Assembly (NCBI GenBank): GCA_021292105.1 | Contig: CM037869.1 | Coordinates: 10,560,471 to 10,624,470, forward strand | DNA length: 64,000 nt | Reading direction: 5' to 3' | DNA from: Anadara kagoshimensis | Lineage: Eukaryota > Mollusca > Bivalvia > Arcoida > Arcidae | Part shown: piece after piece, positions 156 through 64,000 of the stretch | Position numbering within the stretch: the first letter of the stretch is position 1 | Layout: each line of letters begins with the position of its first letter | The notes under the pieces: generated by a model | Database searches by the model: none | Told to the model about the DNA's origin: nothing | What the model saw: the letters and a program-made list of their open reading frames with translations, nothing else | Translations under genes and position numbers: made by a program

Positions 156-3100
156 CTGATAAAAAATAGCATTTTTTTTTAAATACAGAAAAAATAATGA
201 GTACAAAACATATCCTTTTTAAAGTTTAACTGTTTTGTGGGTTATTTCGGGGCTAAATTTCAACCTAATATGACATACCACTTACATGGGTAACAGGTTA
301 ATAAAGACTAAAGGTCAAGATTTTTTTAAATGATTTTAAAATAACTACATAAAATATGTTGATGAAATGATCAACAGTCAATGTCATTGCACACACACAT
401 TGGAATGTTGCATGCTGGTTATCAAGGAAGCAAAAATGATATTACACATAGGCAATATGATTTTTGCTGAGTTCTGGACCAAATATATTAGAACGAGGGT
501 TGAGATTTCCTTATCTGGCACCACAAGTAGTGATTGATTCTATTTCATGCATCAGAAAGTGCAATTTTTCAGTTTAAAACCAATTTCAGCTTTCGATACA
601 CCTCTGATTTTGTTGATAAAATTTTGCGGGAAAAACAGTGTGTCTTGCACAGGGGGGTACAAGATAGAGATATCTTGCACCTCTCTTTTTATGGATTTTT
701 CTATCTGAGGTGCAAGAAAATATAATGAATGTACCTACATTTTGTATCACACCACCATAATTTCTTCTTGCTCTCCTTTCTATTTCCCGTCTTGCTGTTT
801 CCATTTCAGAGTTTAATCTGTTCCAGTTAATTTTGATATATCCTTTATGTTGAGCTATCTGATAAATCAAAACATAAATTAACATACTGAAATCACTAAA
901 TAATAATGTAGTACCTTTCATCACAGCCATACTGCATATATGGAATATTGCAGCATGAAGTGAGCCAAACAGCCCAATGAAAACAACATATGAGTACCGG
1001 GTAAGTTTAAAACTGATTTTTTTTTTTTTTTTTTTTTTTTTTTACATTTATACATTTTTGTTCAATTTAAAATGTGGTGGTTTTATGATTCATCAATATA
1101 ATCATACATATCATGAAGAATAGACTTCAAAATACTGTAAACTTGATTATTTTGGAACAGGTGTAATTTTCAAGAATTTGGTGAAGGATACAATAACACA
1201 AAAATAACCCTAAGTAAAAATTAAAGCATTTTGTCTGCAGAAAGGAAGTAAACATAGAAAATCACGAAAATACCCCCATGCAAAATGATCAGAGCAACAA
1301 AATTGCAAAATGAACCACATTTACAGTATGGTCTATACACCCAAGAGACATACAAACAAACAGGGGTTAACTGTTGAACCATGTGAACAATACCTCTTAA
1401 CCAGGGCCCCACAAACGCCGACAAGGTCATTCGGTGGTAAAAATCACCGCTAAAAAAAAAAAAAAAAAAAAACCTCATTCATAAAAAACACCCCCCCCCC
1501 CTTATTTTTCATAATGGTTTATAGAGCTTTTTGGTGGAGCTTATATTCTGTCTGGAATGTTACACAGCAAAAATCTACTTTCAGATGCTTCCTTTCTTTC
1601 TTCATTTTATTTATGAAAAACTTTATTCATCCAAACAGTCACTACAAAGTCGGGAAAGAGTGGGTAACGACTATTTGTCGGGTTAAAGTAAAAAATATGG
1701 CTGTCACATGTTTACTGCTTGCATGGTATTAATCATTAAAATCTGGGTTTATTTAGAAGAATATTAAAGAGATCATGATTTTATTATCGTCACACAGCCT
1801 TCCTATGAATAAGGAATATATAATACGGTAATTTTGTTCATCTGCCTTGTGCAATCCACATCGCTTGCCTACAGTAGCTCTGTTCCAGAACAGATGGAGA
1901 TTTTCTTTTTGGTGCCGAATATTCAAATAGGATTCGAATAACAGCTAACTAATATTCAAATGCTTAATTTGGTATTCTTTTCAGCTCTCTTTTTTCAGCT
2001 CGCTGTTTGAATCGCCTCCATAAAACATGAAACAAGGCATAAATAAAACTGAGGCCTCATACGGTATTTTGTTTACACGGTTTGTTGAACCCACGTGGTC
2101 TCGGTAATTAAGTGATTAGAGGATTAACTCTTGTGTTGATAAGACACAGTCAATGATTACTTAATTATCACACCGATTGTACACCTGTGGGACATGTGGC
2201 TTCATCTTAAAGTCTTGTGTGATTTCTCGATCGTGAACTAATCTTAATTGACAAGACAAAATTTAGTAGGTTTATCGGGGGAAAAAACCGAATGACCGAA
2301 TTTCAATTTGGCGTTTTATTTGCCAATTCGGTGATTTTTAGCCGATTTTGGCAATTTGTGGGGCCCTGCTCTTAACGTTTGTGTGGGACGTTTTGGAAAC
2401 CAGTAACAGCGCACATTTCTGGAATAATGTCATTTTTATGGGAAAATGTCAACTGATGGGATAGATACAAACCTGAAGTATAAGAATTGTGGCCCCTAAT
2501 GATGCTGCTGCTGCTTTACCAACTTTAACAAATAAATACCCTGAAACCCTAAAAATAGAATGTAAGGGGACATAATTCAGTAAATTCACAAATATATACC
2601 AAGAAACCCTAAAAATAGAATTTAAGGGGACATAGTTCAGTATAATAACAAATAAATACCCGGAAACTCTAAAATTAGAATACAAGGGGACATAACTCAG
2701 TATATAAACAAATAAAAACACGGAAACTCTAAAAATAGAATATAAGGGGACATAACTCAGTATATGAACAAATAAATACCCGAAAATTCTAAAAATAGAA
2801 TATAAGGGCACATAACTCAGTATATAAACAAATAAATACCCCGTAAACACTAAAAATAGAACATAAGGGGACATTATTCAGTAAATTAACAAATAAATAC
2901 CCAGAAACCCTAAAAATAGAATATAAGAGAACAAAATTCAGTATAATTAACAAATAATTAACCTGAATCCTTAAAAGGGGCAAATAGATATTCTAAATAT
3001 AGAATACTTTATCTATAACCTGATGTGTATTTCTTTTGGGGTTAGTCAAATTGAGATAACCCACTATAGGTAATTATACCCTAAACAGGCTAATTTTTAC

Positions 3101-3412
3101 CTATCAGTTTACTATATACTTCAACTTCAACATTGGTACTTCATAACATCTGCAAGCATACATCACATCAAAAGAGTTGAAAGGCATTGTACTCTAATAG
3201 TAGACCAATTCAATTAGTATCATCATCCCTTTACTGTGCAATATAAATATGTTTGAACAAAACAGACTGACATACCAGCCAGACGCACCACCAATGACTA
3301 CTTGTTTAGCCACAGATTGTCGTGATAAATCTCCAAACACTCTCTTAATCCAGTTCCTGTCTATTGATGTCAGATCCAGAACCTCAAAGTCTTCATTGTC
3401 TTCTGAAGCCAT
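78..3412 (-). CDS. FUNDC1: FUNDC1 homologue, mitophagy receptor, complete, 4 coding exons
   Basis: FUN14-domain protein of the outer mitochondrial membrane; in animals it recruits LC3/GABARAP to mitochondria under hypoxia and acts at ER-mitochondria contacts (family knowledge). Coding exons on the minus strand are 3412-3276, 2548-2473, 858-739 and 155-78. They join in frame (137+76+120+78 nt) to 136 residues plus TGA; human FUNDC1 has 155. Visible: an acidic N-terminus with the LIR-like core FEVL at residues 9-12 followed by DL, the conserved GGASGW at about 41-46, a glycine/alanine-rich membrane segment (KVGKAAAASLGATILILQ), the IKINWNRLNSEMETARREIE stretch matching human VQIDWKRVEKDVNKAKRQIK, and a C-terminal hydrophobic GGFFGGFLLGMAF. 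All introns are GT-AG. The start is the first Met of exon 1, which lies one base after an acceptor-like tttcag, so an upstream exon is possible. It is divergent to KDM6A. Confidence 0.92.
156..738. other. FUNDC1 intron 3
   Basis: AT-rich intronic sequence between coding exons 3 and 4. I see no gene, tandem array or inverted-repeat element in it. Confidence 0.6.
739..858 (-). CDS. FUNDC1: FUNDC1 coding exon 3
   Basis: A 40-codon exon, phase 0 at both ends. The acceptor is gatttatcag|ATA and the donor AAT|GTAGGT. It encodes IAQHKGYIKINWNRLN and the basic helix SEMETARREIERRARRN, the charged region between the membrane segments of FUN14 proteins. Confidence 0.92.
859..1393. other. FUNDC1 intron 2, part beside exon 3
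   Basis: No gene seen. The notable feature is a T run at about 1018-1043. The rest is AT-rich sequence with no motif I can name. Confidence 0.6.
1402..2368. mobile_element. hAT-like non-autonomous DNA transposon, 967 bp
   Basis: Terminal inverted repeats start CAGGGCCCCACAAA at the left and end TTTGTGGGGCCCTG at the right, with an inner similarity around AAAATCACCG. It is flanked by an exact 8-bp target duplication, CTCTTAAC, at 1394-1401 and 2369-2376; 8-bp duplications are typical of hAT elements. There is no transposase ORF. The left end includes an A run (about 1453-1471) and a C run (about 1490-1500). It sits in FUNDC1 intron 2. Confidence 0.85.
2473..2548 (-). CDS. FUNDC1: FUNDC1 coding exon 2
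   Basis: Encodes VSGYLFVKVGK and then AAAASLGATILILQ, aligning with human CAGFLFQKVGK and LAATAVGGGFLLLQ. The acceptor ctatttttag|GG completes TGG (W46); the donor is CAG|GTTTGT, phase 0. The acceptor and the first 20 or so exon bases are part of a 60-bp tandem repeat that continues into intron 1. Confidence 0.9.
2519..2985 (-). repeat. FUNDC1: 60-bp minisatellite over the FUNDC1 intron 1/exon 2 junction
   Basis: Seven to eight units of 60 bp (one of 61). On the minus strand each holds a copy of the 3' splice site ttctatttttag, the first bases of exon 2 (coding for SGYLFV-like residues) and a spacer containing a tatgtcccctt-like core. The genuine exon start at 2548 is the last unit in transcription order. 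Because 60 is a multiple of 3, the exon 2 frame stays open leftwards through about five units, giving a periodic hydrophobic translation. Confidence 0.93.
2986..3275. other. FUNDC1 intron 1, part beside exon 1
   Basis: Unique-looking AT-rich intron sequence without recognised elements. Confidence 0.55.
3276..3412 (-). CDS. FUNDC1: FUNDC1 coding exon 1
   Basis: Encodes residues 1-45 plus two bases of W46. It holds the LIR-like FEVL motif and the WIKRVFGDL segment corresponding to human WWNRVFG. The donor is CTG|GTATGT, phase 2. Directly upstream of the ATG the minus strand reads ttgtttcag|A, a good acceptor, so a 5' non-coding exon, or an upstream coding exon, may precede it. Confidence 0.9.
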
Positions 3413-3697
3413 TCTGAAACAATAATAATACTGATATAATTATATCAATCAACCAACATTGTCTGGGCTGTCACGCCCCCTTTTTGGTACTAGGTTCTTG
3501 GCCCTTGAAATTGACAAAATGGGGTCTTCCCGATTCTCCCACTTTTAATTACTGATAAATATAAACATTGGTCTTAACTGTTGTTTTAGTTATTATAGTC
3601 TATTTCCTTATCCTTCATTTACCTAGATTAGTAAATAAATTGCATTTTCATTTGGCCTATGCGGAAATTAGAATAAAAACTTCTGTCATAGAACTGA

Positions 3698-3990
3698 AGC
3701 GGTCAGGTAGCTCAGTGGGGGAGGAAGGGAGGTCCTGGGTTCGATCCCCTGTCCGAACATGCATTTTATTTTTTCCCTTTCCTGTTACATTTGGGGACTC
3801 GTCCGACCCTGGGAAGTGGTCGACCAACAGGTAAAAACCTGATGGTTTCGATTCAAGGGAGTTGAATCAAAAAAAAAAAAGAAGGGAGGAATGTAGCAGT
3901 CTAGAGTAGCTCAGTGGTAGAACACTCGCCTATAGTTCCCCGGACCGACCCTGCATTTTTCTCTTTCCTGTTACAGAACTTTGTCTGTTG
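3698..3990 (+). mobile_element. tRNA-derived SINE (two related heads)
   Basis: Starts with an A-box-like GGTAGCTCAGTGGGGGAGG and a B-box-like GGTTCGATCCC, followed by sequence with a poly-A run at about 3869-3880. A second, shorter tRNA-like head (GTAGCTCAGTGGTAGAACAC) begins near 3905, and the two share the tail words 'tgcatttt' and 'ctttcctgttaca'. Best read as two related SINE copies or one partly duplicated copy. Confidence 0.6.
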
Positions 3991-4569
3991 CACTTTCTTA
4001 ACGTTTGCACTGTCAGTCATGTAAGAAATAATGGTAAGTATTTTACATGCCAGATACAGATGAATGGTAAATGACATTGCCTTTGGGATTTCCCAATCTG
4101 AATTATTGTTGTATTTTCTCTATTTCTAATATAATCATGAAATTCCATCTAGATCTACTTCAAGGCAGCTATGGTATTGAAGTGTGATTTTTCAACCATT
4201 TTTGAATCTGAATAAATACCCCTATATCACACTGTCTATGACATAATTAATTTACTGTACCTTTCACAACACTTAACTTTCTATTTGTGTAGTGTATTGC
4301 GTTATACCATCTCCTACTTATTTAAACGTAAGTGTGCACAAAGCACTGATGTTGGCGCAGTTGAAAATATTAGGCAATTATTAGATCAAATGGTTTTAAA
4401 ATAATTTTTAAACTATAAAATAGGCAGTTGAATTTATAGAATAATATTGTTTTTTTTCGACTCAATTAAGTCGTTTTAAAACTGAAAGTTGACATACATC
4501 CCTGCTGATGTACACAAATACGCGTAATTATCTAATATCGAAACGGGCACTTGTTGCAAACGCGATATT

Positions 4570-4577
4570 GATTGGCT
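4570..4577 (-). promoter_or_regulatory. Candidate CCAAT box (AGCCAATC on the minus strand)
   Basis: AGCCAATC matches the NF-Y consensus well and lies about 125 bp before the KDM6A start codon in a CG-richer stretch. NF-Y sites are common in bidirectional promoters. Only the motif is seen; occupancy is inferred. Confidence 0.35.
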
Positions 4578-4701
4578 AGTTTTTGGAACTCGACCTTGAC
4601 CCTTGTCAGCTTGTGAAAACGGAAGAGGCTGTGCTCTCTTATCCTGGAAATGAATAGCAGTCGCTTTATGTAGTTCTGCGTAAAATTCCAACGGATAAAT
4701 T

Positions 4702-4769
4702 ATGAATACAGAAAATCCAGATATAGTTTTATCAACTGAAGAAAGAGAACAACTCGGAAAATATGACAG
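4702..4769 (+). CDS. KDM6A: KDM6A coding exon 1
   Basis: Residues 1-22 plus two bases of S23. [13 protein letters not shown] aligns with human LTAEEREALGGLD. A TAA at 4696-4698 is in frame just upstream, which supports this ATG. The alanine-rich N-terminal tail of mammalian UTX is absent. The donor is CAG|GTTGTA. Confidence 0.9.
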
Positions 4770-16377: not shown

Positions 16378-16408
<31 letters not shown>

Positions 16409-16764: not shown

Positions 16765-16797
<33 letters not shown>

Positions 16798-37150: not shown

Positions 37151-37200
<50 letters not shown>

Positions 37201-40200
37201 GAGAGGTGGTTGCTTATACACATGCATGTATAACATTTGTAATATTATATGTATGTTATATTAGTTATTTACTTGTGTTATATAACAATATGATATGAGT
37301 TATATAATTATACAATTCATTCACAATGATAGATATAGTATTACAAGTAACAATTATAAATTGAATGTACGTAATATCCCTCCATTAAAACATCATTACA
37401 AAATTCTCTTAACCTCTTCACCCCACCCACACTATACATATCATGTTTAAATACAAACAGTTTGTAGTAATTTCCATGAATCTATAAGTGGTATAATATT
37501 TCCTAGTTCAAAAAGTATTCATTTAAATGATCAGATTTTACGTAATTACCCCACCCACCTTGTAAGTCTTACTTTACCCAATTGTCCTACCCACCCACCC
37601 ACCATTTTATACTTTTTTTTCATAATAGTGTGTAAAATAAAGTTCCCCACATTTAGTATAGAGTGCAGTGAAGTGATCACTAATGGTACTTTACAGGCAC
37701 CTGTCAAGATTCTTTCACTTGTATCAAGGTCAGTTCTTTATTGGTGGAGGAAACTGGAGTACCCAGTGTAAACCACCAAACTCCAGCAAGCAAACTGATA
37801 ATAATGCCCCTCAACAAAGTGCCCAGTGTAAACCACCAAACTCCAGCAAGTAAACTGATAATAATGCCCCTCAACAAAGTGCCCAGTATAAACCACCAAA
37901 CTCCAACAAGTAAACTGATAATAATGCCCCTCAACAAAGTGCCCAGTATAAACCACCAAACTCCAACAAGTAAACTGATAATAATGCCCCTCAACAAAGT
38001 GCCCAGTATAAACCACCAAACTCCAGCAAGTAAACTGATAATAATGCCCCTCAACAAAGTGCCCAGTGTAAACCACCAAACTCCAGCAAGTAAACTGATA
38101 ATAATGCCCCTCAACAAAGTGCCCAGTGTAAACCACCAAACTCCAGCAAGTAAACTGATAATAATGCCCCTCAACAAAGTGCCCAGTATAAACCACCAAA
38201 CTCCAGCAAGCAAACTGATTATAATGCCCCTCAACAAAGTGCCCAGTGTAAACCACCAAACTCCAGCAAGTAAACTGATAATAATGCCCCTCAACAAAGT
38301 GCCCAGTATAAACCACCAAACTCCAGCAAGTAAACTGATAATAATGCCCCTCAACAAAGTGCCCAGTGTAAACCACCAAACTCCAGCAAGTAAACTGATA
38401 ATAATGCCCCTCAACAAAGTGCCCAGTATAAACCACCAAACTCCAGCAAGCAAACTGATTATAATGCCCCTCAACAAAGTGCCCAGTGTAAACCACCAAA
38501 CTCCAGCAAGTAAACTGATAATAATGCCCCTCAACAAAGTGCCCAGTATAAACCACCAAACTCCAGCAAGCAAACTGATTATAATGCCCCTCAACAAAGT
38601 GCCCAGTATAAACCACCAAACTCCAGCAAGTAAACTGATTATAATGCCCCTCAACAAAGTGCCCAGTATAAACCACCAAACTCCAGCAAGTAAACTGATT
38701 ATAATGCCCCTCAACAAAGTGCCCAGTATAAACCACCAAACTCCAGCAAGCAAACTGATTATAATGCCCCTCAACAAAGTGCCCAGTGTAAACCACCAAA
38801 CCCCAGCAAGTAAACTGATTATAATGCCCCTCAACAAAGTGCCCAGTATAAACCACCAAACTCCAGCAAGCAAACTGATAATAATGCCCCTCAACAAAGT
38901 TCCCAGTATAAACCACCAAACTCCAGCAAGCAAACTGATTATAATGCCCCTCAACAAAGTGCCCAGCGTAAACCACCAAACTCCAGCAAGCAAACTGATT
39001 ATAATGTCCCTCAACAAAGTGCCCAGTATAAACCACCAAACTCCAGCAAGCAAACTGATATAATGTCCCTCAACAAAGTGCCCAGTATAAACCACCAAAC
39101 TCCAGCAAGCAAACTGATATAATGTCCCTCAACAAAGTGCCCAGTATAAACCACCAAACTCCAACAAGCAAACTGATATAATGCCCTCAACAAAGTGCCC
39201 AGTATAAACCACCAAACTCCAACAAGTAAACTGATAATAATGCCCCTCAACAAAGTGCCCAGTATAAACCACCAAACTCCAGCAAGTAAACTGATAATAA
39301 TGCCCCTCAACAAAGTGCCCAGTATAAACCACCAAACTCCAGCAAGTAAACTGATTAATAATGCCCCTCAACAAAGTGCCCAGTATAAACCACCAAACTC
39401 CAACAAGTAAACTGATAATAATGCCCTCAACAAAGTGCCCAGTGTAAACCACCAAACTCAACAAGTAAACTGATAATAATGCCCCTCAACAAAGTGCCCA
39501 GTATAAACCACCAAACTCATGCAAGTAAACTGATAATAATGCCCCTCAACAAAGTGCCCAGTATAAACCACCAAACTCCAGCAAGCAAACTGATAATAAT
39601 GCCCCTCAACAAAGTGCCCAGTATAAACCACCAAACTCCAGCAAGCAAACTGATTATATAAATGCCCTGCCCCTCAACAAAGTGCCCAGTATAAACCACC
39701 AAACTCCAGCAAGTAAACTGATTATAATGCCCCTCAACAATTTTGCCACCTAGCTTATTGCTTAAGTATTTTGAGATCTCAAAATCAGTTTCTTCTATGT
39801 TTTTCTTTATACCTCTCCCTGGATATGTTGCCAAAATCCTTTTCAACACCAAATTTTGACTAAATCATTTATCTAAATAACATAAATATGTTACATAGAC
39901 AAGCCCTGGGCTTACTATAAGGTATCTACTTATAGTAAATAAAGAATTACTGTCTTAAAGCTATACATTAAGTAAGGCTGAAATTTGATAAAAAATATCA
40001 ATTTCTTATTGGTCTACGTGCAGTTACGCAAATATCTCTCACCATTTTCCTTGCTTTGTAAAGTGATTGGTTTTGAGTGGTCTTAGCACTATAATTTTTA
40101 ATTTTATTTCCTTTTCCTTTAAATTTCCTTATTTAACTGAACAAAATATATAAAAAGAATTTTGTTGATAACATGATAATATTTTAACAATGGAAAAGGG

Positions 40201-52506: not shown

Positions 52507-52546
<40 letters not shown>

Positions 52547-58500: not shown

Positions 58501-61500
58501 ATCCATTGAACAGCTTGACAAGTGAAAAACTACTTCTGGAACTGTTGGTCATCAATTAGAGAGTGGAGTAATGCTGCTTTATGCCCCAGTCAAGATTCAT
58601 TCACTTATATGAAGGTAGTCTTTTCTGGGATGGTGGTGGAAACAGGAGTACCTGGAGAAATCCACCAAGCTTTGGCAAGCAGATTGATAAACTTTCTCAC
58701 AATAGAATCTGTCCTGAATGGGATTAAAACGTAGATGGTGAGAGGCACTGTGATCCGTAAGCTTGTGTTTTCAGCCACTCGACCACTGAGGCCCTCATCA
58801 AGTAAAGATTTTACCCCTAGTGATGTTTTAAGTAGAACACTAGGCGAGTTGTAGATGAACTCTTTTTTTTATTTAAAAACATTTTGTTGATGTAATTGTG
58901 GAATTTTCAAATGGTCTATGCATCTGGTAAGAAAAAATCTTAAACCATTGTATTGCCTCTTCACAATGTTGTACACTTGAATATACAGGTATACAATATT
59001 CATTACAGGTGTTTCTCTGGATTAGGTAAAGTTCATGATGCCTTTGTGTCTTACCGTAACTCCATTGATAAGTCAGAAGCCAGTGCTGACACCTGGTGCT
59101 CAATAGGGTAAGTAAAAAGTCCATGATGCCTTTGTGTCTTACACTAACTCCATTGATAAGTCAGAAGTCAGTGCTGACGCCTGGTGCTCAATAGGGTAAG
59201 TAAAAAGTCCATGATGCCTTTGTGTCTTACCGTAACTCCATTGATAAGTCAGAAGTCAGTGCTGACACCTGGTGCTCAATAGGGTAAGTAAAAAGTCCAT
59301 GATGCCTTTGTGTCTTACCGTAACTCCATTGATAAGTCAGAAGTCAGTGCTGACACCTGGTGCTCAATAGGGTAAGTAAAAAGTCCATGATTCCTTTGTG
59401 TCTTACCGTAACTCCATTGATAAGTCAGAAGTCAGTGCTGACACCTGGTGCTCAATAGGGTAAGTAAAAAGTCCATGATGCCTTTGTGTCTTACCGTAAC
59501 TCCATTGATAAGTCAGAAGTCAGTGCTGACACCTGGTGCTCAATAGGGTAAGTAAGAAGTCCATGATTCCTTTGTGTCTTACCGTAACTCCATTGATAAC
59601 TCAGAAGCCAGTGCTGGCATCTGGTGCTCAATAGGTTTGGTATAATGTGTTATTGTTAATTGACATAGTTAAGAGAACTTGTTTGCTTATGATAGACATA
59701 GATAAGAGAACTTGTTTGCTTATGGTATAAAACTACTGATTTAATTTGCATGAACTTTATCTACAAACATGTTGTAAGTCATTTGGATTCATGTTGGTCC
59801 AGTATTGTCAGAGTAGCTAAAAGTATTTCATTGACCTAGGAACAATAAATCACTTCTGAAATTACATGCATGTTGATTAGAGAAAAATTAACAAATTCAA
59901 AGGAATAAAATAGTTCCTTCTTCTGTTGACATAGCACCAATAGTTTGGTGACAAATTAAAGGAGATATATAAAAATGGCGACATGGAGGTAGCACTTTAT
60001 TTAGAGATGACAACTACAGATAGGTTTAACTGTATTGATGTTGTTATTGTTTATTTTACAGAGTTTTATATCAACAACAGAATCAGCCTATGGATGCTTT
60101 GCAGGCCTACATATGTGCGGTTCAGTTGGACAAGTCACACACTGCAGCATGGACTGACCTGGGAATTCTGTATGAAAACTGTAACCAGCCAAAAGACGCT
60201 CTTACATGCTATTTGAATGCTACACGGAATAAAGGTTTGAATCTTACTTAGTTTTGATTAGCTATTATCATGTGGGAGGCGAGATATCTCACTCTGAGAA
60301 CCACTGCGGTAGCTCAGTTGGTAGAGTGCTCGCTCCGTAAGTGGTAGGTTGTGGGTTCGAACCCCGACCGAAAGTCACAGTTCTTTCGGATATGAACTTG
60401 AAATAAACGAGGTTCCGTGTCCGTAGGGCTTGGCATGATAAAGAAACCTGTATTATATAAGTAGAATATTCTTGACTGGGACTTTAAACACCATTACTCA
60501 ATTTAACTCTCACTCTGAGGGCATTGTTCAGATTAGGATTTCAGAAACTCATAACTTCACCTATTGCGTTACCCCACTATGCACATATGCCTGATTTGGT
60601 GATTCGGCTAAACCAGAATGCTGCTGGTGGTATGATCTACCTCATATGTCAGCCTCTGTAGGACATAGAAGGTGCAAAAATTCAGGGAACCATTTTTATA
60701 TCCTCAGTGTGATAAGGGTTAGTAATGTCATTTTATGTCAGCTTTTAAGTTGTTCTATTGTATGGTAATTCATATGATAGTCAATAGGTGACCTTACCTT
60801 GTCATTGTGGTCCATATGGGAATCGTTCCTCAATGGACAAGTACAGTAAAGTGTGGATTCATTGCCATCCTTTGTTCAGTCAGCTTTTGCATTATAAAAG
60901 GGTTTTGCAATAAATAGACAATAAATAGAGATAGGCGTATATAGAAGTACATAGGAGAAAGAAATGGATTTTGGGACTTCAAATAGTGTCGGGGATTTAA
61001 GGTGGCAAAGTTATGGAGGGGCATTGTAAATGAGGTTTTACTGTACTTATAACATGGAGGACTTTTGCTTAGTGGTGCCTTTTTTTAGCTCGCCTGCAGG
61101 AAAAAATGCAATAGTTACAGCAGGAACTGCCAGTTTTTGCTTTATCAGTATCTAAATGTTCAATTTTTTGGACAACCTTTATAAAATAATGCATTCATAC
61201 AGGCGAGCTATCAAGTTGTTCCCCTCTGATTTATACCACTCCTCACATGGTAAAATCTGCAATATGAATTTGTTAAGTGGTTATCTAGGCTTCATCAGTG
61301 TCCAAATGTTATATTTATACATTCATTAGAGACAAGCTATCAAGTTGTATTTGCTCCCTCCTGGTTAAAACTATGCCTCAAACTATTGAGTCTGGAAGTT
61401 GAATTGATTATATGGTTTTCAAGCCATGGTACATTGAGCCACATGTATGATTTTGATTGATGGAACATCTTAAGGCACTGGATGCCAGAAAACAAGTGTA

Positions 61501-61657
61501 TTACCCTGTTCTTATTGAATATATTTCTGTATTAATTCATTGTTTCTATATATTTCAGGTGGAGTTAACTCAAGTTTAGCAGCTAAAATTAAATTTCTAC
61601 AACAAAACTTAGATAGTATTCCCATACAGCATCTAGCCAGCAAGTATGTATAACAAT

Positions 61658-61695
<38 letters not shown>

Positions 61696-61886
61696 TCCCA
61701 TACAGCATCTAGCCAGCAAGTATGTATAACAATGGAGAGAGAGAAAGAGAGTGGAGAGAGAGAGAGAGAGAGTGAATGAGATTCCTATACAACATCTAGC
61801 CAGCAAGTATGTATAACAATGAAGAGAAGAGAAAGAGAGAGAGAGAGAGTCCCATACAGCATCTAGCCAGCAAGTATGTATAACAA

Positions 61887-61925
<39 letters not shown>

Positions 61926-61961
61926 CCATACAGCATCTAGCCAGCAAGTATGTATAACAAT

Positions 61962-62008
<47 letters not shown>

Positions 62009-62184
62009 CCTATACAGCATCTAGCCAGCAAGTATGTATAACAATGAAGAGAGAGAGAGAGAGAGAGTGAATGAGATTCCTATACAACATCTAGCCAGCA
62101 AGTATGTATAACAATGAAGAGAGAGAGAAGAGAGAGAGAGAGAGTCCCATACAGCATCTAGCCAGCAAGTATGTATAACAAAGA

Positions 62185-62239
<55 letters not shown>

Positions 62240-62275
62240 CCATACAGCATCTAGCCAGCAAGTATGTATAACAAT

Positions 62276-62325
<50 letters not shown>

Positions 62326-64000
62326 CCATACAGCATCTAGCCAGCAAGTATGTACAACAATGAAGAGGGAGCAAGAGAGATGCACACAGAACTTTGATAG
62401 TGTCCCTATGTACTTTTAAGCCAGAAAGACTATATAACTAATATGCAGAGACAGAGAGAGAAGAGAGAGAGAGAGAGCACTTTGAATATAAAATTGTCAT
62501 CTAATTGGTTGTGTCATTTATTGTTTTTCAGACCTAAAACTTTACCAAGCATAGAAGAAGCTTGGGCATTACCTATACCTGCTGAACTTACCTCACGTCA
62601 AGGTGCTAGCCTAACAGCTCAGGTAAGACTTACCTGTAATTACTCAACATCTCATCAAGTTCATTAGTTTGTGTATACATGTATATTCTTTTGCACTATG
62701 TACACTATGTCGATACAGGTCACAGTGCCTCTCACAACTTAGCTTCAGTTTGGACAGATGAGATGTTACTAGCTATAGGTGAAGTGGCACAAAGTTGTAC
62801 CTCTGTATTGTACTGAGGGTTTTGCCTACTGTGACACGATACTTAAGTTATTTACAGGCTGGTCCGAAGGACCCTGTGAATTTCAATCTAAATGAAGAAT
62901 ACTTGACAAAAGAACAGGTCAATGACTATTTTTAAGCCTAGGATAGACCCAATCAGGTTTGAACCCTAACATCTAACGTATGAAGAGAGTACTCTACCAA
63001 CTGAGCTACCATAGTAGTTAGAGTGTATAATTTTGTACACATGGACACTTTCATCAGCTATGTAACGGGTTGTATGTTTAGATTTACAAACATGTATTTA
63101 ACTATTTGTATGTAATTTTACTTGTAGCACCTGTTGGCTAAACAGGCTATGATGGATGAAGAAAATGAAAAGAAAAAGCTTGCTACAAAGAGGGTAAGTC
63201 TGTTACACTCCAGTATCACAGTATCAATTGTTAATTTAATTTTATAATTTCTAGTTTTCTAGGTCTCTTTGATATGAAACATTACATGATATTTTTAGAA
63301 TAAAATAATAGGCCTATATATCTTTGTCACAGTTGAGTCAAAATTTATCTAAAGTTTTGTTTGATGTTCTTAATAACTCTGTAATTGTGAAAAAATAGCA
63401 TTCAAATAGCCAAAATTGTGAAAATGATAAGTTCCAATTTGTTACAAAACTCTAAAATGGAAAAGTGAAAACTTGTTTTATGAACAAAGGGCTCATGACC
63501 GATGAATTACAGTAGAACTTTGACCGCTTGAACATTGATGCCTCGAATACCCCAGAGTCATCTGCTGGTCCCCACCAAATTCCTGTTAAATCCTATGTAA
63601 GTGAACCTCGGTCGCCAATAACTACTATAACTAGAATTCCCCTGCTCGCTCGAACATTAAATATTTCTCGGTGGCTTGAACATTTGGCTGAAGTACATGG
63701 GGACTTCGAGCCATCGAAGTTCGAAGTTCTACTGTATAAATCTGAGTCATAAGCTAGTCTTATGTAACTCTTGGTTTACAGAGTTGCGTATAAGTACATA
63801 ATGGAAGGAAATTTAAATGACTTGATATATCTTTGTAGACATCGTCTGAAGCTCTTGATTCTGCCATGCCTCCTCCTATACAACTGACACAACAGGAAAT
63901 GACGATCCTTCACCATTTACAACAATCACAAGCCAACCTTAATCCACAACAACAGGAGTTGTTACAGACACTACAACATAAATATATACAACAACAACAA
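4702..64000 (+). CDS. KDM6A: KDM6A/UTX histone H3K27 demethylase, 5' part, 16 coding exons, runs off the right edge
   Basis: KDM6A removes methyl groups from H3K27 as part of the COMPASS-like MLL3/4 complex in the nucleus. The 5' half encodes a TPR scaffold; the catalytic JmjC domain is outside the window. Exons: 4702-4769, 7452-7524, 8201-8351, 8876-8925, 10396-10454, 51268-51388, 53178-53232, 54665-54699, 54919-55012, 58347-58473, 59009-59107, 60062-60234, 61559-61643, 62532-62622, 63128-63193, 63839-64000. They total 1,509 nt and join without a frame break to 503 residues. TPRs span roughly residues 85-370. Diagnostic matches to vertebrate UTX are [39 protein letters not shown] and [12 protein letters not shown]. 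The start ATG has an in-frame TAA two codons upstream. The N-terminus is about 30 residues shorter than human. Intron 5 is 40.8 kb. Confidence 0.96.
5380..5890. repeat. Minisatellite, unit about 36-50 bp (gtaggtcaacatacatctg)
   Basis: About thirteen imperfect units around the core tatgtaggtcaacatacat with a spacer such as 'acccagtacctctga'. Unit length varies, so the array is old or heterogeneous. It lies in KDM6A intron 1. Confidence 0.85.
6787..7170 (+). mobile_element. tRNA-derived SINE, family B, full length, with exact target duplication
   Basis: The head has an A box TGGCCTAGTGG and a B box GTTCGAGTCCC. The body follows, and the element ends in a (CCAA)n tail after 'gatgcgacgttaagcaac'. 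It is flanked by the exact 10-bp direct repeat TAGTGTAAGA (6777-6786 and 7171-7180). The target is itself a family C SINE (agatcc before, aaatttgtctg after), so the insertion is nested. A sister copy is at 9420. Confidence 0.88.
7452..7524 (+). CDS. KDM6A: KDM6A coding exon 2
   Basis: The acceptor ttttttccag lies behind a T run. Encodes CLYGFVKF and continues to ALIEK (residues 23-47); LYGFVKF corresponds to human LFGFVRF. Donor AAG|GTATCA, phase 0. Confidence 0.92.
7620..7900 (+). mobile_element. SINE family C copy
   Basis: Contains 'cagatcctaatgtgag', the lines 'tttcctccac' and 'gaactgaccacctt', and the end 'gaatcttgacttgggc' characteristic of the other family C copies here. The 'gacttgggcttaaaaca' end occurs twice, so part of it is duplicated. 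It lies in KDM6A intron 2. Confidence 0.65.
8201..8351 (+). CDS. KDM6A: KDM6A coding exon 3, first TPR
   Basis: Residues 48 to first base of 98. [19 protein letters not shown] is a TPR helix pair matching human FFCQLGHFNLLLEDYPKA. An insert rich in K, D and G (about residues 62-76) precedes it. Donor AAG|GTAAGT. Confidence 0.95.
8352..8875. other. KDM6A intron 3
   Basis: 524 bp. The only recurring word is 'tattgtgagttgtctccctt' at about 8603, found again near 12106, which hints at a dispersed repeat. Otherwise nothing recognised. Confidence 0.5.
8876..8925 (+). CDS. KDM6A: KDM6A coding exon 4
   Basis: Encodes [16 protein letters not shown] (residues 99-114), matching human LSAYQRYYSLQSDYWK. 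Acceptor atttcag|CA, donor AAG|GTATGT. Confidence 0.95.
9420..9812 (+). mobile_element. tRNA-derived SINE, family B, second copy
   Basis: Same structure as the copy at 6787 (TGGCCTAATGGATAAG head, 'ctgatgcgatgttaagcaac' tail). Near-exact direct repeats TAATCTACCACC (9408-9419) and TAATCTACCATC (9813-9824) are a probable target duplication. The B box is worn (GTTTGAGCCCC), so it is older than the copy in intron 1. It lies in KDM6A intron 4. Confidence 0.82.
10136..10314. mobile_element. Small inverted-repeat element, TA target (CAGTCAAACCT family)
   Basis: Begins CAGTCAAACC and ends GGTTCGACTG with TA on each side. The interior carries words such as 'cccttatataaag' and 'gcctttataagcaggt'. The TA duplication and CAGT ends suggest a pogo/Tigger-type non-autonomous element. 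Relatives lie at 13329, 26568, 30263 and 36808. Confidence 0.75.
10396..10454 (+). CDS. KDM6A: KDM6A coding exon 5
   Basis: Encodes [19 protein letters not shown] (residues 115-133) plus two bases of L134; human reads [18 protein letters not shown]. The donor CT|GTAAGT opens the 40.8-kb intron. Confidence 0.95.
10497..11130. mobile_element. Possible hAT-like element
   Basis: Left end TAGGGATGATAACAATTAAT and right end (read inwards) TAGTGTTGAACAATCAGAAC are similar. The flanks ATTTTAAT (10489-10496) and ATTACAAT (11131-11138) agree at 6 of 8 positions, as for a decayed 8-bp target duplication. No transposase is visible. Confidence 0.4.
11940..12080 (+). mobile_element. Decayed copy of the short 'ctatgtttcca' element
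   Basis: Shares 'gctatgtttcc', 'attgcc', 'tttctttcagaaagtaacc' and 'tttagcaaatctgtg' with the better preserved copy at 15189. Confidence 0.45.
12361..12583 (-). mobile_element. SINE family A copy, minus strand
   Basis: The head at the right end reads (minus) 'ggcagcttagttggtatag' with 'gttcgaacac' as B box. The body words 'gaccctgacaaagacttgaa' and 'tgccaagcactgggcatt' are diagnostic of the family. Confidence 0.65.
12697..13028 (+). mobile_element. SINE family A copy
   Basis: tRNA-like head GTAGCCCAGTTGGTAGAGTG and GGTTTAAACCC, then body ('aagacttgaaaacgggt', 'aagcactcagcattagaaaa', 'gaaagtcacgttctttc') and 3' end 'gatataagtgaaatat...gaacaccactactcaact'. Near full length at about 330 bp. 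Confidence 0.75.
13050..13225 (+). mobile_element. SINE family C, 3' part
   Basis: Reads 'gacagattctagtgtgaaaa', 'ggcactgtggtttcctccac' and 'ttttgactggggcataaaac', as in other family C copies; the head is missing. Confidence 0.6.
13329..13490. mobile_element. Small inverted-repeat element, CAGTCAAACCT family
   Basis: CAGTCAAACCTGCCTT at the left, AGACAGATTTGACTG at the right, TA flanks, 162 bp. The interior repeats 'ataaaggccac' in both orientations. Confidence 0.8.
13971..14032. repeat. Perfect 19-bp inverted repeat (hairpin)
   Basis: Arms ATCACAAATTGTGTAAAAC (13971-13989) and its exact complement at 14014-14032, with a 24-base loop. It could form a stable stem in DNA or RNA, or be the core of an eroded fold-back element. 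Confidence 0.75.
14296..14626 (-). mobile_element. SINE family A copy, minus strand
   Basis: Near full length: (minus) GCGGTAGCTCAATTGGTAGA head at 14626, 'gttctaacccc' as degenerate B box, and tail 'gactggggcgttaaacaccg' at 14296. Confidence 0.75.
14635..14910 (-). mobile_element. SINE family B fragment with internal tandem duplication
   Basis: Minus-strand copy of the family B body. The piece containing 'cagtataatgtgactgggg' and 'tgtggcatactgact' occurs twice about 105 bp apart (words 'cccagtcacattatactgat' and 'cccaagtcacattatactga'). Confidence 0.6.
15189..15327. mobile_element. Short inverted-repeat element, ctatgtttcca ends
   Basis: About 140 bp with ends TGCTATGTTTCCA and TGGAAACGTAGTA, which are inverted repeats with a few mismatches. 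Relatives occur at 11940 and, inverted, at 26872. Confidence 0.6.
16080..16800. repeat. Cluster of simple repeats (GA, ATA, A-rich, CA)
   Basis: (GA)n near 16110-16145, (AAT)n near 16225-16270 and 16375-16410, A runs near 16530-16580 and two (CA)n blocks at 16686-16725 and 16745-16800. No gene. Confidence 0.8.
18018..18335. mobile_element. Two adjoining SINE fragments: family B (minus) then family A (plus)
   Basis: 18018-18212 reads as family B in reverse ('tgttgtttaacatcacatca', 'ccttgtactagcac', 'gtctgtactctg'). 18213-18335 is the head-to-body part of family A ('gtgggtttaaaccctgg', 'gaaagtcacatg'). Confidence 0.55.
19013..19060. repeat. (GA)n microsatellite
   Basis: About 12 GA units followed by an interrupted stretch. 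Confidence 0.85.
19793..19880. repeat. 18-bp tandem repeat (cctcgctggctttattga)
   Basis: About four units with small changes. Confidence 0.8.
20085..21800. repeat. Minisatellite, unit about 95-105 bp, interrupted by a DNA element
   Basis: Imperfect units around 'gtgacctgctattaattagg' and 'tcaccagtgtatagttgtgt' run from about 20085 to 20710 and resume at 21661-21800. The gap is a 950-bp inverted-repeat element; removing it with one TA restores the unit sequence across the junction. Confidence 0.85.
20711..21660. mobile_element. 950-bp inverted-repeat DNA element inserted in the minisatellite, TA duplication
   Basis: Left end AAGTCCGATCACTTATTCAG followed by TGATGAA; right end, read inwards, TAGTCCGACCACATTTTCAG followed by TGATGAA. 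This gives about 26 bp of terminal inverted repeat with four mismatches. TA flanks at 20709-20710 and 21661-21662. No ORF, so non-autonomous. The family is not assigned. Confidence 0.82.
21905..22150 (+). repeat. Duplicated segment, copy 1
   Basis: About 240 bp ('tctattttatgaatatcatt' to 'tttttatctatata') with a close second copy at 22526-22765. A family A SINE lies between the copies. Confidence 0.85.
22189..22525 (+). mobile_element. SINE family A, best preserved head
   Basis: A box TTAGCTCAGTTGGTAGAGTG and B box GGTTCGATCCC are intact. The body and the tail 'gatataagtgaaatattctt' and 'gttaaacaccattactcaac' are complete. It is placed between the two halves of a 240-bp duplication. Confidence 0.8.
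22526..22765 (+). repeat. Duplicated segment, copy 2
   Basis: Matches 21905-22150 with scattered substitutions and small deletions (for example 'atttagacaaacaatcagct'). Confidence 0.85.
23262..23537 (-). mobile_element. SINE family C, minus strand
   Basis: Contains 'tatgcccaagtcaagattct', 'ggaaaccagagtgcccagag', 'gctgtgatccataatcttgt' and a tRNA-like head end 'ccacttagccagcc'. The middle part is the parent sequence of the 60-bp satellite at 37760. Confidence 0.7.
24160..24252. repeat. Two-copy 41-bp direct repeat
   Basis: 'cgaagtttggggggatatca' and its continuation occur twice in tandem. Confidence 0.85.
24455..24860. repeat. Degenerate minisatellite, unit about 30 bp (gttcttagattgctgcctag)
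   Basis: About twelve diverged units containing 'cagagttattgttctt' and 'gattgttgcctag' variants. Confidence 0.75.
25240..25648. repeat. 30-bp minisatellite (tagttcagttcagtttagac)
   Basis: About 13 units, the right half nearly identical. Because 30 is a multiple of 3 it gives an open frame with a ten-residue period on the plus strand; this is a by-product of the repeat, not a gene. Confidence 0.92.
26568..26813. mobile_element. CAGTCAAACCT-family element with a duplicated left end
   Basis: The first 65 or so bases (CAGTCCAACCTGCCTTAAAG and on) occur twice in tandem, then the normal interior and the end AGACAGGTTTGACTA. Confidence 0.75.
26872..27018 (-). mobile_element. Inverted relative of the ctatgtttcca element
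   Basis: Read on the minus strand it begins TACTATGTTTCCATTC and continues with 'ctaattcctgagaaattctt', parallel to 15189-15327. Confidence 0.55.
27706..28203 (-). other. Unassigned 165-codon ORF in KDM6A intron 5
   Basis: The longest intronic ORF not produced by a tandem repeat or a SINE. It is serine/threonine/asparagine-rich with one hydrophobic stretch (about residues 44-57, [14 protein letters not shown]). I recognise no family. It may be chance; a nested gene antisense to KDM6A is the alternative. Confidence 0.2.
28890..29095. repeat. Three-copy repeat, unit about 65 bp (tatgggtggaggrtat)
   Basis: 'ttatgggtggagggtatgaa', 'catgggtggaggatataaaa' and 'tatgggtggagagtac' are separated by 'cctgggttt'-type spacers. 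Confidence 0.65.
29108..29512. repeat. 50-bp minisatellite (tgtatacaatataatatagg)
   Basis: Eight units at an exact 50-bp spacing from 29111 to 29461. Two unit types (ending 'tagtcagtacctgg' or 'caatgtgtgcctgg') are interspersed at the right end. Confidence 0.93.
29663..29735. repeat. (CT)n microsatellite
   Basis: Two CT blocks with short interruptions. Confidence 0.85.
30263..30439. mobile_element. Small inverted-repeat element, CAGTCAAACCT family
   Basis: Left end CAGTCAAACCT after TA; right end 'ctgttttgactg'. The interior words 'gcaggtggtccttatata' and 'cccttatataaagg' place it in the family. Confidence 0.7.
30890..31600. repeat. gattgattgattg-rich simple and complex repeat
   Basis: GATT runs mixed with a longer unit of about 65-70 bp containing 'ggtgggtttgctggttggcc'. 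It gives proline/serine/asparagine-rich open frames on the minus strand that are not genes. Confidence 0.85.
32136..32473 (-). mobile_element. SINE family A, minus strand
   Basis: Minus head GTGGTAGCTCAGTTGGTAGA at 32470 and 'ggtctgggattcaaac' B-box region; tail 'gactaggacgttaaacacca' at 32143. Near full length. Confidence 0.8.
32690..33125. repeat. Minisatellite, unit 33-36 bp (ggtgacctacatttctggc)
   Basis: About 13 units of 'aacatggtgacctacatttc' with a 'tggctactaattac' or 'tggccactaatac' spacer. It shares the core ggtgacctacatttc with the larger array on the other side of a SINE. Confidence 0.92.
33137..33375 (-). mobile_element. SINE family C, minus strand, between two halves of a satellite
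   Basis: 'ttatgcttcagtcaagactt', 'ggaaaccagagcacccca' and 'aggccctatgatctg' are family C in reverse. The satellite units left and right of it differ. Confidence 0.7.
33410..34820. repeat. Minisatellite, unit 35-36 bp, about 40 copies (ggtgacctacatttcttac)
   Basis: Unit 'agtacggtgacctacatttc' plus 'ttacaactagttacc'. Variants (accagtatgg or actagtacgg, gacc or gact, a shorter 'catcttacactag' form) recur in blocks, a sign of higher-order duplications. Confidence 0.94.
35300..35512 (+). mobile_element. SINE family C copy
   Basis: 'cttacagatcacagtgcctg', 'ttcaaatcccacttgggaca', 'ctctgatttctctcaccatc', 'cctcgactggggcataaagc': head to tail of family C. Confidence 0.7.
35930..36200 (+). repeat. Probable dispersed repeat (tatcccctgctt start)
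   Basis: Contains 'gtctgtccatgtgtctgtcc', 'ggattttcatgaaactttca' and 'gatccgatggattt', wording I associate with dispersed repeats of marine invertebrate genomes. There is only one copy here, so this is recognition by style only. Confidence 0.35.
36808..36984. mobile_element. Small inverted-repeat element, CAGTCAAACCT family
   Basis: Left end CAGTCCAACCTGTATATAAG after TA; right end 'cctttaaggcaggttaatg' is worn. Confidence 0.65.
37154..37205. repeat. (GA)n microsatellite
   Basis: About 20 GA units at 37154-37195 followed by ggggtagaga. Confidence 0.9.
37680..37760 (-). mobile_element. Truncated SINE family C leading into the 60-bp satellite
   Basis: 'cctgtcaagattctttcact', 'ttggtggaggaaactggagt', then 'acccagtgtaaaccaccaaa'. 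The SINE sequence passes without a break into the first satellite unit. Confidence 0.75.
37752..39745. repeat. 60-bp satellite derived from a SINE, about 33 copies
   Basis: Unit 'gtgcccagtataaaccacca', 'aactccagcaagtaaactga', 'ttataatgcccctcaacaaa'. Copies are very similar; length variants (58-62 bp) cluster at 39055-39480 and 39655-39680. The period is divisible by 3 and the unit lacks stops in several frames, so 400-residue open frames appear on both strands; none is a gene. The unit matches the internal part of family C SINEs (compare 23340-23400). Confidence 0.96.
40550..41200. repeat. Minisatellite, short unit (gacaggtgtctgttatatag)
   Basis: Roughly 20-25-bp units of 'aggtgacaggtgt' and 'gttatatagag'. 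Two longer near-identical blocks of about 120 bp start at 40555 and 40695 ('gtctcacagttatataggag'). Confidence 0.88.
41880..42196 (+). pseudogene. LINE reverse-transcriptase tail, degenerate
   Basis: The frame ending in TAA at 42194-42196 encodes [20 protein letters not shown] and then [15 protein letters not shown]. This is the typical C-terminus of non-LTR element ORF2 proteins (pattern N-S-F-F-x-R-x-x-x-x-W-N-x-L-P followed by FK..L). Upstream, stops interrupt the frame. A 5'-truncated, inactive copy. Confidence 0.7.
42438..42684. mobile_element. 247-bp inverted-repeat element with perfect 44-bp arms
   Basis: Left arm GGTTTCACAATCATTCCTTA through CTTAAAT (42438-42481). The right arm, ending TAAGGAATGATTGTGAAACC at 42684, is its exact complement over 44 bases. 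The interior has no coding sequence. Identical arms suggest a young insertion or gene conversion. Confidence 0.88.
43260..43400. repeat. Two-copy 68-bp direct repeat
   Basis: 'aaacatgtgaacttccacca' / 'aaacatgtgaacttcaacca' followed by 'gagtgaggctgggtgc' in both. Confidence 0.85.
46235..46620. repeat. Loose repeats around 'gcactccttgta'
   Basis: 'atgcactccttgtaaaaaaa' occurs twice and a related 'atgcactccttgtatttaa' once, each near 'ttgacctayaaagt'. Probably three diverged units of about 150 bp. Confidence 0.55.
46885..47045 (+). mobile_element. SINE family C, 3' part
   Basis: 'gcagattctagtgtgagaaa', 'tcagtttacttgcctttggt' and 'gaatcttgtctgggac' match the family. Confidence 0.55.
48547..48702. 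repeat. Direct repeat of 27 bp flanking a 100-bp spacer
   Basis: 'atactttgcaacttcataaa' / 'atactttgcaagttcataaa', each followed by 'gacatt'. Between them is a small hairpin, AAAAGGTG-CTT-CACCTTTT. Confidence 0.65.
48850..49017 (-). mobile_element. SINE family A, 5' part, minus strand
   Basis: Minus head 'atggtatctcagttgataga', then 'gtctgactaagacttgaaa' and 'tgccatgtactcagga'. Confidence 0.55.
50449..50745 (+). mobile_element. SINE family A copy
   Basis: Head CGTAGCTCAGTTGGTAGAGT is intact but the B box is deleted ('ggttagggtctcaccaagac'). The tail 'agctggtgatgtctcaatat' is present. Confidence 0.7.
51268..51388 (+). CDS. KDM6A: KDM6A coding exon 6
   Basis: Acceptor cttgcag|A restores the L134 codon, confirming the join across 40.8 kb. 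Encodes [20 protein letters not shown] and continues [17 protein letters not shown], matching human [20 protein letters not shown] and RLGLMFKVNTDYESSLK (residues 134-174). Donor AAG|GTAACG, phase 0. Confidence 0.96.
51450..51690 (+). mobile_element. SINE family C copy
   Basis: 'cttacagatcacagagcctc', 'gacagatcctaatgtgagaa', 'aggcactctggtttcctcct' and 'gaatcttgactgttgcataa': head to tail of the family. Confidence 0.7.
51713..52000 (+). mobile_element. SINE family A, 5'-truncated
   Basis: Starts at the B box (GTGGGTTCAAACCC) and runs to 'gactgggacgttaaacacca', the cleanest family A tail in the window. Confidence 0.75.
53178..53232 (+). CDS. KDM6A: KDM6A coding exon 7
   Basis: Encodes [18 protein letters not shown] (residues 175-192), aligning with human HFQLALVDCNPCTLSNAE. 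Acceptor ttttttacag, donor A|GTAAGT. Confidence 0.95.
53233..54664. other. KDM6A intron 7: SINE family C remnants
   Basis: A two-copy 38-bp repeat ('cctcatttgtactactatca') at about 53374-53443. Family C SINE at 53455-53695 and a second partial copy at 53760-53890. About 53900-54664 has no recognised element. Confidence 0.65.
54665..54699 (+). CDS. KDM6A: KDM6A coding exon 8 (35 nt)
   Basis: A very short exon giving [12 protein letters not shown] (residues 193-204); human IQFHIAHLYETQ. Both flanking splice sites are strong (tatttcag and CAG|GTATGT). Confidence 0.93.
54919..55012 (+). CDS. KDM6A: KDM6A coding exon 9
   Basis: Encodes [13 protein letters not shown] and continues to [10 protein letters not shown] (residues 205-236); human RKYHSAKEAYEQL and VKATVLQQLG. 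Donor CTGG|GTAAGT, phase 1. Confidence 0.95.
55013..58346. other. KDM6A intron 9
   Basis: 3.3 kb. 55013-56870 looks like unique AT-rich sequence with no gene seen. 56875-58130 is a dispersed repeat containing tandem units. 58131-58346 is unique apart from A runs near 58241-58273. Confidence 0.6.
56875..58130 (+). repeat. Composite dispersed repeat with five internal 145-bp units
   Basis: Begins with a GTGCG-rich stretch and 'cgtcgttaacacctattttc', and ends 'caggcccatgggcctcttgt', an ending I have seen in mollusc dispersed repeats. Inside, from about 57365 to 58030, a unit of about 145 bp ('ctcgaaaactataaactttt', 'aggtcatgggttcaaaggtc') occurs five times. The word 'caaaggtcaaggtcacagatg' contains AAGGTCA half sites. 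Confidence 0.7.
58347..58473 (+). CDS. KDM6A: KDM6A coding exon 10
   Basis: Encodes [12 protein letters not shown] and [20 protein letters not shown] then LLG (residues 236-277); human WMHHTVDLLGDK and [20 protein letters not shown]. Acceptor tattttag|G, donor AG|GTATGT. Confidence 0.96.
58556..58797 (-). mobile_element. SINE family C, minus strand, in KDM6A intron 10
   Basis: 'tatgccccagtcaagattca', 'ggaaacaggagtacctggag', 'gaggcactgtgatccgtaag' and the head 'gggcctcagtggtcgagtgg' (minus). Well preserved. Confidence 0.75.
59009..59107 (+). CDS. KDM6A: KDM6A coding exon 11
   Basis: Encodes [20 protein letters not shown] and [14 protein letters not shown] (residues 278-311); human [34 protein letters not shown]. 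Its last 74 bases plus 14 intron bases form the unit of an 88-bp tandem array that continues downstream. Confidence 0.96.
59034..59639 (+). repeat. KDM6A: 88-bp array built from the 3' end of KDM6A exon 11 with its donor site
   Basis: Seven copies at a spacing of exactly 88 bp (catgatg at 59034, 59122, 59210, 59298, 59386, 59474, 59562). The first is the real exon. Each copy holds 74 exon bases and the intron start GTAAGTAAAAAGTC or a one-base variant; six copies keep GTAAGT (59108, 59196, 59284, 59372, 59460, 59548) and the seventh reads GGTTTGG instead. No copy has a preceding acceptor. The internal copies share GTC (Val) where the exon and the last copy have GCC (Ala), suggesting amplification of an inner unit. 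Confidence 0.95.
59640..60061. other. Rest of KDM6A intron 11
   Basis: A short direct repeat ('gagaacttgtttgcttatg' twice, 59670-59725) and otherwise unique sequence up to the acceptor ttttacag. Confidence 0.55.
60062..60234 (+). CDS. KDM6A: KDM6A coding exon 12
   Basis: Encodes two TPR units: [20 protein letters not shown] then [20 protein letters not shown] and [17 protein letters not shown] (residues 312-368). The first 20 residues equal human UTX, and the rest is nearly identical. Donor AAAG|GTTTGA, phase 1. Confidence 0.97.
60298..60508 (+). mobile_element. SINE family A with internal deletion
   Basis: Intact head GGTAGCTCAGTTGGTAGAGT and GGTTCGAACCC. The body jumps from 'ccccgaccg' to 'aaagtcacagttctttcgga' and lacks part of the 3' region, but ends 'gactgggactttaaacacca'. 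Confidence 0.75.
60844..61043. mobile_element. 200-bp inverted-repeat element, TA target (CAGTAAA ends)
   Basis: CAGTAAAGTGTGGATTCATT at the left; right end, read inwards, CAGTAAAACCTCATTTACAA; TA on both sides (60842-60843, 61044-61045). Pogo/mariner-like non-autonomous element in KDM6A intron 12. Confidence 0.65.
61046..61558. other. 3' part of KDM6A intron 12
   Basis: Contains a loosely repeated segment ('gctcgcctgcagg', 'aggcgagctatcaagttgt', 'gacaagctatcaagttgt'), perhaps two or three diverged units. No gene. Confidence 0.45.
61559..61643 (+). CDS. KDM6A: KDM6A coding exon 13
   Basis: Encodes [19 protein letters not shown] then SIPIQHLAS (residues 369-396); human has SALAARIKYLQAQLCNLP. 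Donor AA|GTATGT, phase 2. Its last 23 bases and the donor are repeated ten times downstream. Confidence 0.94.
61621..62365 (+). repeat. KDM6A: Array of KDM6A exon 13 ends and donor sites separated by GA tracts
   Basis: Ten copies, the genuine one included, of the exon end (CATCTAGCCAGCAA) with the donor GTATGTATAACAA and a (GA)n tract of variable length. Copies start near 61621, 61697, 61783, 61850, 61922, 62008, 62076, 62144, 62236 and 62323. All ten keep GTATGT. Variants (ccatacag, ctatacag, ctatacaac) recur in the same order along the array, which suggests duplication of blocks of several units. Confidence 0.93.
62532..62622 (+). CDS. KDM6A: KDM6A coding exon 14
   Basis: Encodes [19 protein letters not shown] then [11 protein letters not shown] (residues 398-427), the most conserved post-TPR linker of UTX/UTY. 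Acceptor gtttttcag|A, donor CAG|GTAAGA, phase 0. Confidence 0.97.
62757..63019 (-). mobile_element. SINE family A, minus strand, in KDM6A intron 14
   Basis: Minus head 'tggtagctcagttggtagag' at 63015-62996, 'ggttcaaacctgattggg' and worn body. Confidence 0.6.
63128..63193 (+). CDS. KDM6A: KDM6A coding exon 15
   Basis: 22 codons, [20 protein letters not shown] then KR (residues 428-449), phase 0 at both ends. It could be skipped without a frameshift. Acceptor cttgtag, donor AGG|GTAAGT. Sequence similarity to vertebrates is weak here. Confidence 0.85.
63510..63734. mobile_element. 225-bp inverted-repeat element, TA target (CAGTAGAACTT ends)
   Basis: Left CAGTAGAACTTTGACCGCTT, right 'cgaagttcgaagttctactg', TA at 63508-63509 and 63735-63736. 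The CAGTAGAAC-type end and TA target are those of Tigger/pogo-derived elements. KDM6A intron 15. Confidence 0.78.
63839..64000 (+). CDS. KDM6A: KDM6A coding exon 16, cut by the window edge
   Basis: Residues 450-503, open to the last base. [20 protein letters not shown] then [14 protein letters not shown] resembles human [20 protein letters not shown] and PAQKLMLEQLESQF. It begins a glutamine-rich, CAA-rich low-complexity region. Confidence 0.92.

Follow-up and report, generated by a model that had tools for sequence, protein, structure and literature searches.

The window, meaning the whole 64-kb stretch of clam DNA analysed here, carries two genes: FUNDC1 (134 aa), read from the minus strand, and KDM6A/UTX, whose N-terminal part is encoded on the plus strand. 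In hand-built gene models, FUNDC1 has four exons and KDM6A has 17, one of which (62858-62917) is doubtful; every modelled junction is GT-AG and the reading frames are continuous. KDM6A exon 11 was assigned from the gene model and by tblastn with a human KDM6A sequence. The top match to FUNDC1, out of 20 found, was a protein of the blood clam Tegillarca granosa with 96% identity over 93% of the query, so that an ark clam or a close relative is the most likely source of the window. T. granosa has two annotated FUNDC1-like proteins (P0001 and P0008) that agree over the first 71 residues or so, and the shorter one (91 aa) runs off beyond the exon 2 sequence, so that it may stem from a gene duplication or from the splitting of one gene model. 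FUNDC1 and KDM6A lie head to head (3412-4702), their start codons separated by 1.3 kb. The human genes share this neighbourhood and orientation, and the linkage may be an ancient one.

The doubtful KDM6A 'exon 15' (62858-62917, 60 nt, in frame) was first accepted on its GT-AG boundaries and its frame but is now treated with doubt, since interspersed relatives of it occur at 12429, 14486, 22338, and 50545; either the exon is spurious, or it is a cassette exon derived from a repeat. It was excluded from the junction counts, leaving 16 + 4 exons and 36 junctions, and is still contained in the query of the search for KDM6A relatives and in the table of donors.

Repeats were located with Tandem Repeats Finder (TRF), array copies were read one by one, and the 21 modelled exons with their flanks were compared with the window by self-BLAST. 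The window holds 30 arrays with a period of at least 20 bp, which cover 10,135 bp, and 22 of these lie in KDM6A intron 5 (10455-51267, about 41 kb). An array of 33 copies of a 60-bp unit (37758-39740, 95% matched) has long open frames of up to 464 codons on both strands, and its region is strongly asymmetric between the strands, with a GC skew of -0.42 across 38001-40000. Two stretches, 60303-60370 and 3703-3760, appear tRNA-like by eye (GGTAGCTCAG...GGTTCGA) and resemble the heads of SINEs; run with bacterial settings, ARAGORN called no tRNA in the window, and no Rfam match reached the gathering score there.

Three tandem arrays have a unit that contains a genuine splice junction: those at FUNDC1 exon 2, KDM6A exon 11, and KDM6A exon 13. 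The first repeats an acceptor and the other two repeat donors, with units of 60, 88, and 67-93 bp, respectively, and in all three the copy at one edge is coding while the remaining copies are intronic. Gene model, TRF, and copy reading thus agree with an earlier note on this DNA, according to which arrays start inside coding exons and carry copies of the splice site into the introns at three exons; the gene names, exon numbers, and unit lengths given there all hold. Self-BLAST of the 21 modelled exons and their flanks found no exon-end copies in the window outside the three arrays, and the remaining matches were to (AG)n, one intron flank (exon 2), and the interspersed repeat at the doubtful exon 15.

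FUNDC1 exon 2 (2473..2548, minus strand, coding) is delimited by GT-AG junctions and a continuous frame, and its acceptor lies in a 60-bp array at 2525..2976 on the same strand that was traced by TRF, copy reading, copy alignment, and self-BLAST. The unit consists of 36 nt of intron end and the first 24 nt of exon 2 (2548-2525). Seven acceptors are present, the genuine one included, with their last intron base at 2549 (genuine), 2609, 2669, 2729, 2789, 2850, and 2910; they are spaced by 60 or 61 bp, one copy being 61 bp long, and a decayed eighth copy follows at the far end. The intron part carries a branch-like TACTGA motif, a T-rich tract, and TAG, with the motif A positioned 28 nt upstream of the final G of the acceptor AG, and this TACTGA is a putative branch site. 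The array is 85% matched by TRF. The outermost full copy differs from the coding copy at just one of 24 exon-derived positions, which argues against a simple decay with distance at FUNDC1. On the minus strand, the array is open for 141 codons in the frame of exon 2 (2449-2874), because the 60-bp unit amounts to 20 codons without a stop. If the six upstream acceptors were used, one would give a full-length product with 20 more residues, three would create a TGA at the junction codon, and two would shift the frame: the sequence would allow one in-frame isoform out of six.

KDM6A exon 11 (59009..59107, plus strand) is coding, belongs to the TPR region, and runs into an 88-bp array at 59028..59643 on the same strand (59028-59635 by TRF, the full span by copy reading). 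Each unit comprises 80 exonic and eight intronic nucleotides. Donors follow 59107 (genuine), 59195, 59283, 59371, 59459, and 59547, and all six are identical, reading GG/GTAAGTAA with the slash at the splice site, while a seventh position after 59635 reads GG/TTTGG and has lost its GT in a decayed copy. Copies 3, 4, and 6 are identical to each other, whereas the copy at the far end shares 85-90% with the rest. Predicted pairing of this donor with U1 is strong, at -11.6 kcal/mol. Splicing from any of the downstream donors would lead into a stop codon once 311 residues of the modelled protein have been read. Directly after this array, a separate 33-bp duplication (96% matched) occupies 59662-59724.

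KDM6A exon 13 (61559..61643, plus strand, coding, from the gene model) contributes its last ~25 nt as the exonic part of a unit of 67-93 bp that also contains (AG)n of varying length, and the array extends over 61618..62380 on the plus strand (61618-62304 by TRF, with copy reading, and to 62380 by self-BLAST). Ten donors, after 61643 (genuine), 61719, 61806, 61873, 61947, 62031, 62101, 62168, 62261, and 62347, all read CAA/GTATGT. Within the array, a 152-nt block at 61754 is repeated at 62049, at an offset of 295 bp and with 97% identity. Self-BLAST also recovered an older, diverged copy of the exon end and intron start at 62386..62477 on the plus strand (75% identical over 93 columns, E 2e-11, with (AG)n making up part of the match); it aligns to 61602-61691 and therefore extends deeper into the exon than the other copies do. 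The predicted U1 pairing of the exon 13 donor, -4.0 kcal/mol, is the weakest among 16 donors scored, that of the doubtful exon included. Any downstream donor would lead to a stop after 399 residues of the model.

Taken over both KDM6A arrays, a stop follows each of the five extra donors at exon 11 and the nine at exon 13, as well as the lost seventh site at exon 11, and these predicted frames speak against a productive use of the extra donors. The donors are identical within each array, the one lost site apart, and therefore the coding-edge site is not set apart by its donor sequence alone; as splicing generally works, this site would be expected to win through exon definition. For KDM6A, the 239 listed best relatives were examined at junctions within about five residues: all 239 cover the exon 11/12 junction and none has an insertion there, nor is the exon 11 peptide duplicated in any of them when judged at 60% identity. 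The exon 13/14 junction is covered by 210 of the listed relatives, of which 195 have no insertion and 15 have some; insertions of 10 or more residues occur in two of the 210, from Echinostoma caproni (P0090) and Heterobilharzia americana (P0094). For FUNDC1, none of the 12 aligned relatives (20 found), two of them from Tegillarca, contains the 20-residue insert. Relatives are weak evidence on splicing, because most of them are gene predictions.

Repeats with this anatomy have a name. In amphioxus, tandem repeats across exon-intron boundaries are called 'mirages' after the Adh3 case, and in globin genes they occur on the acceptor side in BflGb6 and on the donor side in BflGb9 (PMC3087553). Their repeat lengths range from 10 to 160 bp, many copies retain splice signals, the interior is homogenised with the borders excluded, and two haplotypes were found to have six and three units (PMC3087553). 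Further amphioxus mirages are described in troponin C and PGBD5 (PMC3902484). The three clam arrays resemble them in that the unit spans a genuine boundary, on the donor or the acceptor side, with a length inside the 10-160 bp range in every case, and in that the signals are kept: seven acceptors at FUNDC1, six of seven donors at exon 11, and ten of ten at exon 13. A homogenised interior with diverged outer copies is clear at exon 11 and suggested at exon 13, while at FUNDC1 the outermost copy has decayed but its neighbour still closely resembles the coding copy. The differences are that the host is a bivalve and not a cephalochordate, and that the exon 13 unit additionally carries an (AG)n microsatellite.

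I consider it probable that the three arrays are mirages in a minisatellite-dense stretch of the genome, in which the coding-edge site most likely is still the one used and the extra copies are removed with the intron. Such an array would arise when a tandem unit happened to include a working exon/intron boundary, and local duplication placed a second exon end, complete with its splice site, next to the original one. The coding-edge copy would have kept working. The additional copies would have come to lie in the intron and increased in number there, with unequal exchange or slippage as the probable cause, while those farthest from the exon degenerated. Most likely, splicing would then take place at the coding-edge site, with the extra copies leaving along with the intron and presumably having no effect. 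Signs of turnover are seen in the identical copies at exon 11, the repeated multi-unit block at exon 13, and the diverged outer copies, and turnover of this sort is usual minisatellite behaviour. Amphioxus lends support by analogy: the anatomy is the same, and Adh3 together with RT-PCR data suggests that regular splicing is undisturbed (PMC3087553). The unbroken KDM6A relatives at exon 11/12 and, for the most part, at exon 13/14 also favour this reading. Counting against it are the identical donors within each array, the little-changed outermost full copy at FUNDC1, the 15 relatives with some insertion near exon 13/14, and the seed-unit null described below, which leaves room for an excess at junctions. 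The earlier note had offered, as one of two readings, that local duplication is frequent in this genome and that only the intron side tolerates copies, and this fits the 30 arrays in 64 kb, the position of the coding copy at one edge, and the lack of exon-end copies elsewhere in the window.

The same note called three cases in 20 exons striking, and whether this is so depends on the null model. Three were applied to the 36 junctions and the 30 arrays of period at least 20 bp in this single window, which was chosen for showing the pattern: rotation of the array set, random placement of whole arrays, and random placement of one seed unit per array, the last of which comes closer to the way in which an array starts. 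On average, rotation put 3.23 arrays onto junctions (P = 0.64 for three or more) and whole-array placement 3.14 (P = 0.63), and thus under whole-array nulls the three junction arrays need no special cause, because there are 30 arrays in 64 kb. Seed-unit placement gave a mean of 0.90 against the three observed (P = 0.06), and it is this null alone that makes the number appear weakly striking. Two subsets were picked post hoc: for the 11 arrays with four or more copies, P was 0.39 by rotation, 0.36 by whole-array placement, and 0.006 by seed unit, and for the eight arrays outside intron 5 it was 0.54 by whole-array placement and 0.023 by seed unit. Keeping the doubtful exon (38 junctions) left the picture unchanged (P of 0.65, 0.64, and 0.077). 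Enrichment was rejected as a firm claim, with no excess by the rotation and whole-array nulls and a weak one by the seed-unit null.

These numbers bear on the idea that exon/intron junctions are preferred start points for tandem duplication in this genome and that the cluster is a true excess. The seed-unit results would favour it, and so would the recurrence of mirages in several amphioxus genes; the other two nulls (P between 0.36 and 0.64 across all arrays and subsets) do not, and an excess at junctions is unproven because the subsets were picked post hoc and the window was chosen for its pattern. A preference for junctions is an unlikely explanation, though the best placed of the alternatives.

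A second alternative holds that the extra sites are used as a splicing control that depends on copy number, with KDM6A donors diverting transcripts to unproductive mRNA and the next upstream FUNDC1 acceptor adding 20 residues before the first membrane helix. It could draw on the sameness of the donors in six of seven exon 11 copies and all ten exon 13 copies, on the weak U1 pairing at exon 13, and on the one extra FUNDC1 acceptor of six that would be in frame. However, the KDM6A arrays are young, and therefore the identity of their copies needs no selection, the other five FUNDC1 acceptors would lead to a stop or a frameshift, and the insert is missing from the aligned FUNDC1 relatives, Tegillarca included. 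It could also draw on the six extra FUNDC1 copies, in which 17 of 18 columns of the branch, T-tract, and AG motifs are invariant, compared with eight of 18 other intron columns and 13 of 24 exon-derived columns, and the true position of this splice-motif mask was the best of 60. The mask was picked post hoc, after viewing the copies, and the contrast had P = 0.015 among A/T columns and vanished among T columns alone (P = 0.63). Selection on the extra FUNDC1 acceptors was not accepted on this basis and is a lead only. Overall, a functional role of the extra copies is unlikely, and splicing control by copy number in particular seems highly improbable. If it were true, the unstable copy number of a minisatellite would tune the dose of KDM6A, a chromatin regulator, and FUNDC1, a mitophagy receptor, and donor copy number would set the share of productive KDM6A mRNA.

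That the arrays are assembly artefacts is barely credible: exact matches occur among the exon 11 copies, misassembly of tandem arrays is common, and an aberrantly assembled mirage is reported from an amphioxus draft (PMC3087553), but the copies differ by substitutions, at exon 13 also by (AG)n length, and the FUNDC1 array is only 85% matched, and misassembly would not create diverged copies.

The remark in the earlier note that no named system like this was known does not hold, as the amphioxus repeats (PMC3087553) are such a system. Related cases exist elsewhere. Human internal tandem repeats include minisatellite expansions over exon-intron boundaries, with 27 intron modifications (PMC2812944). 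They differ from the clam arrays in that their host genes are segmentally duplicated and that RNA evidence links them to new introns or to alternative splicing. Intron gain by tandem genomic duplication, in which the duplication brings in the splice signals, has likewise been described (for example PMC4974935). The clam arrays are unlike this in that the extra copies lie inside existing introns, which grew, and no new intron is required. In abalone, a 27-bp minisatellite in intron 3 is not described as reaching a junction in the passages considered. Among the matches listed, no bivalve mirage was found in the open-licence PMC literature. A 1995 paper reportedly dealt with a minisatellite that provides multiple splice donors in an interferon-induced transcript, probably of IFI6/G1P3. 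Judging by its title, the array copies there carry splice donors as they do here, but those donors are provided to the transcript, whereas the clam KDM6A copies are predicted to be unproductive.

As far as the literature searched shows, what is new is the bivalve host and the occurrence of three cases side by side, while the kind is already known. The amphioxus work discusses mirages as a possibly general feature of cephalochordates and as a way in which new introns could arise (PMC3087553). Three probable mirages in a pair of adjacent bivalve genes suggest that such repeats originate wherever minisatellites are dense, and the clam arrays offer naturally occurring material for testing how splicing settles on one site when as many as ten are identical.
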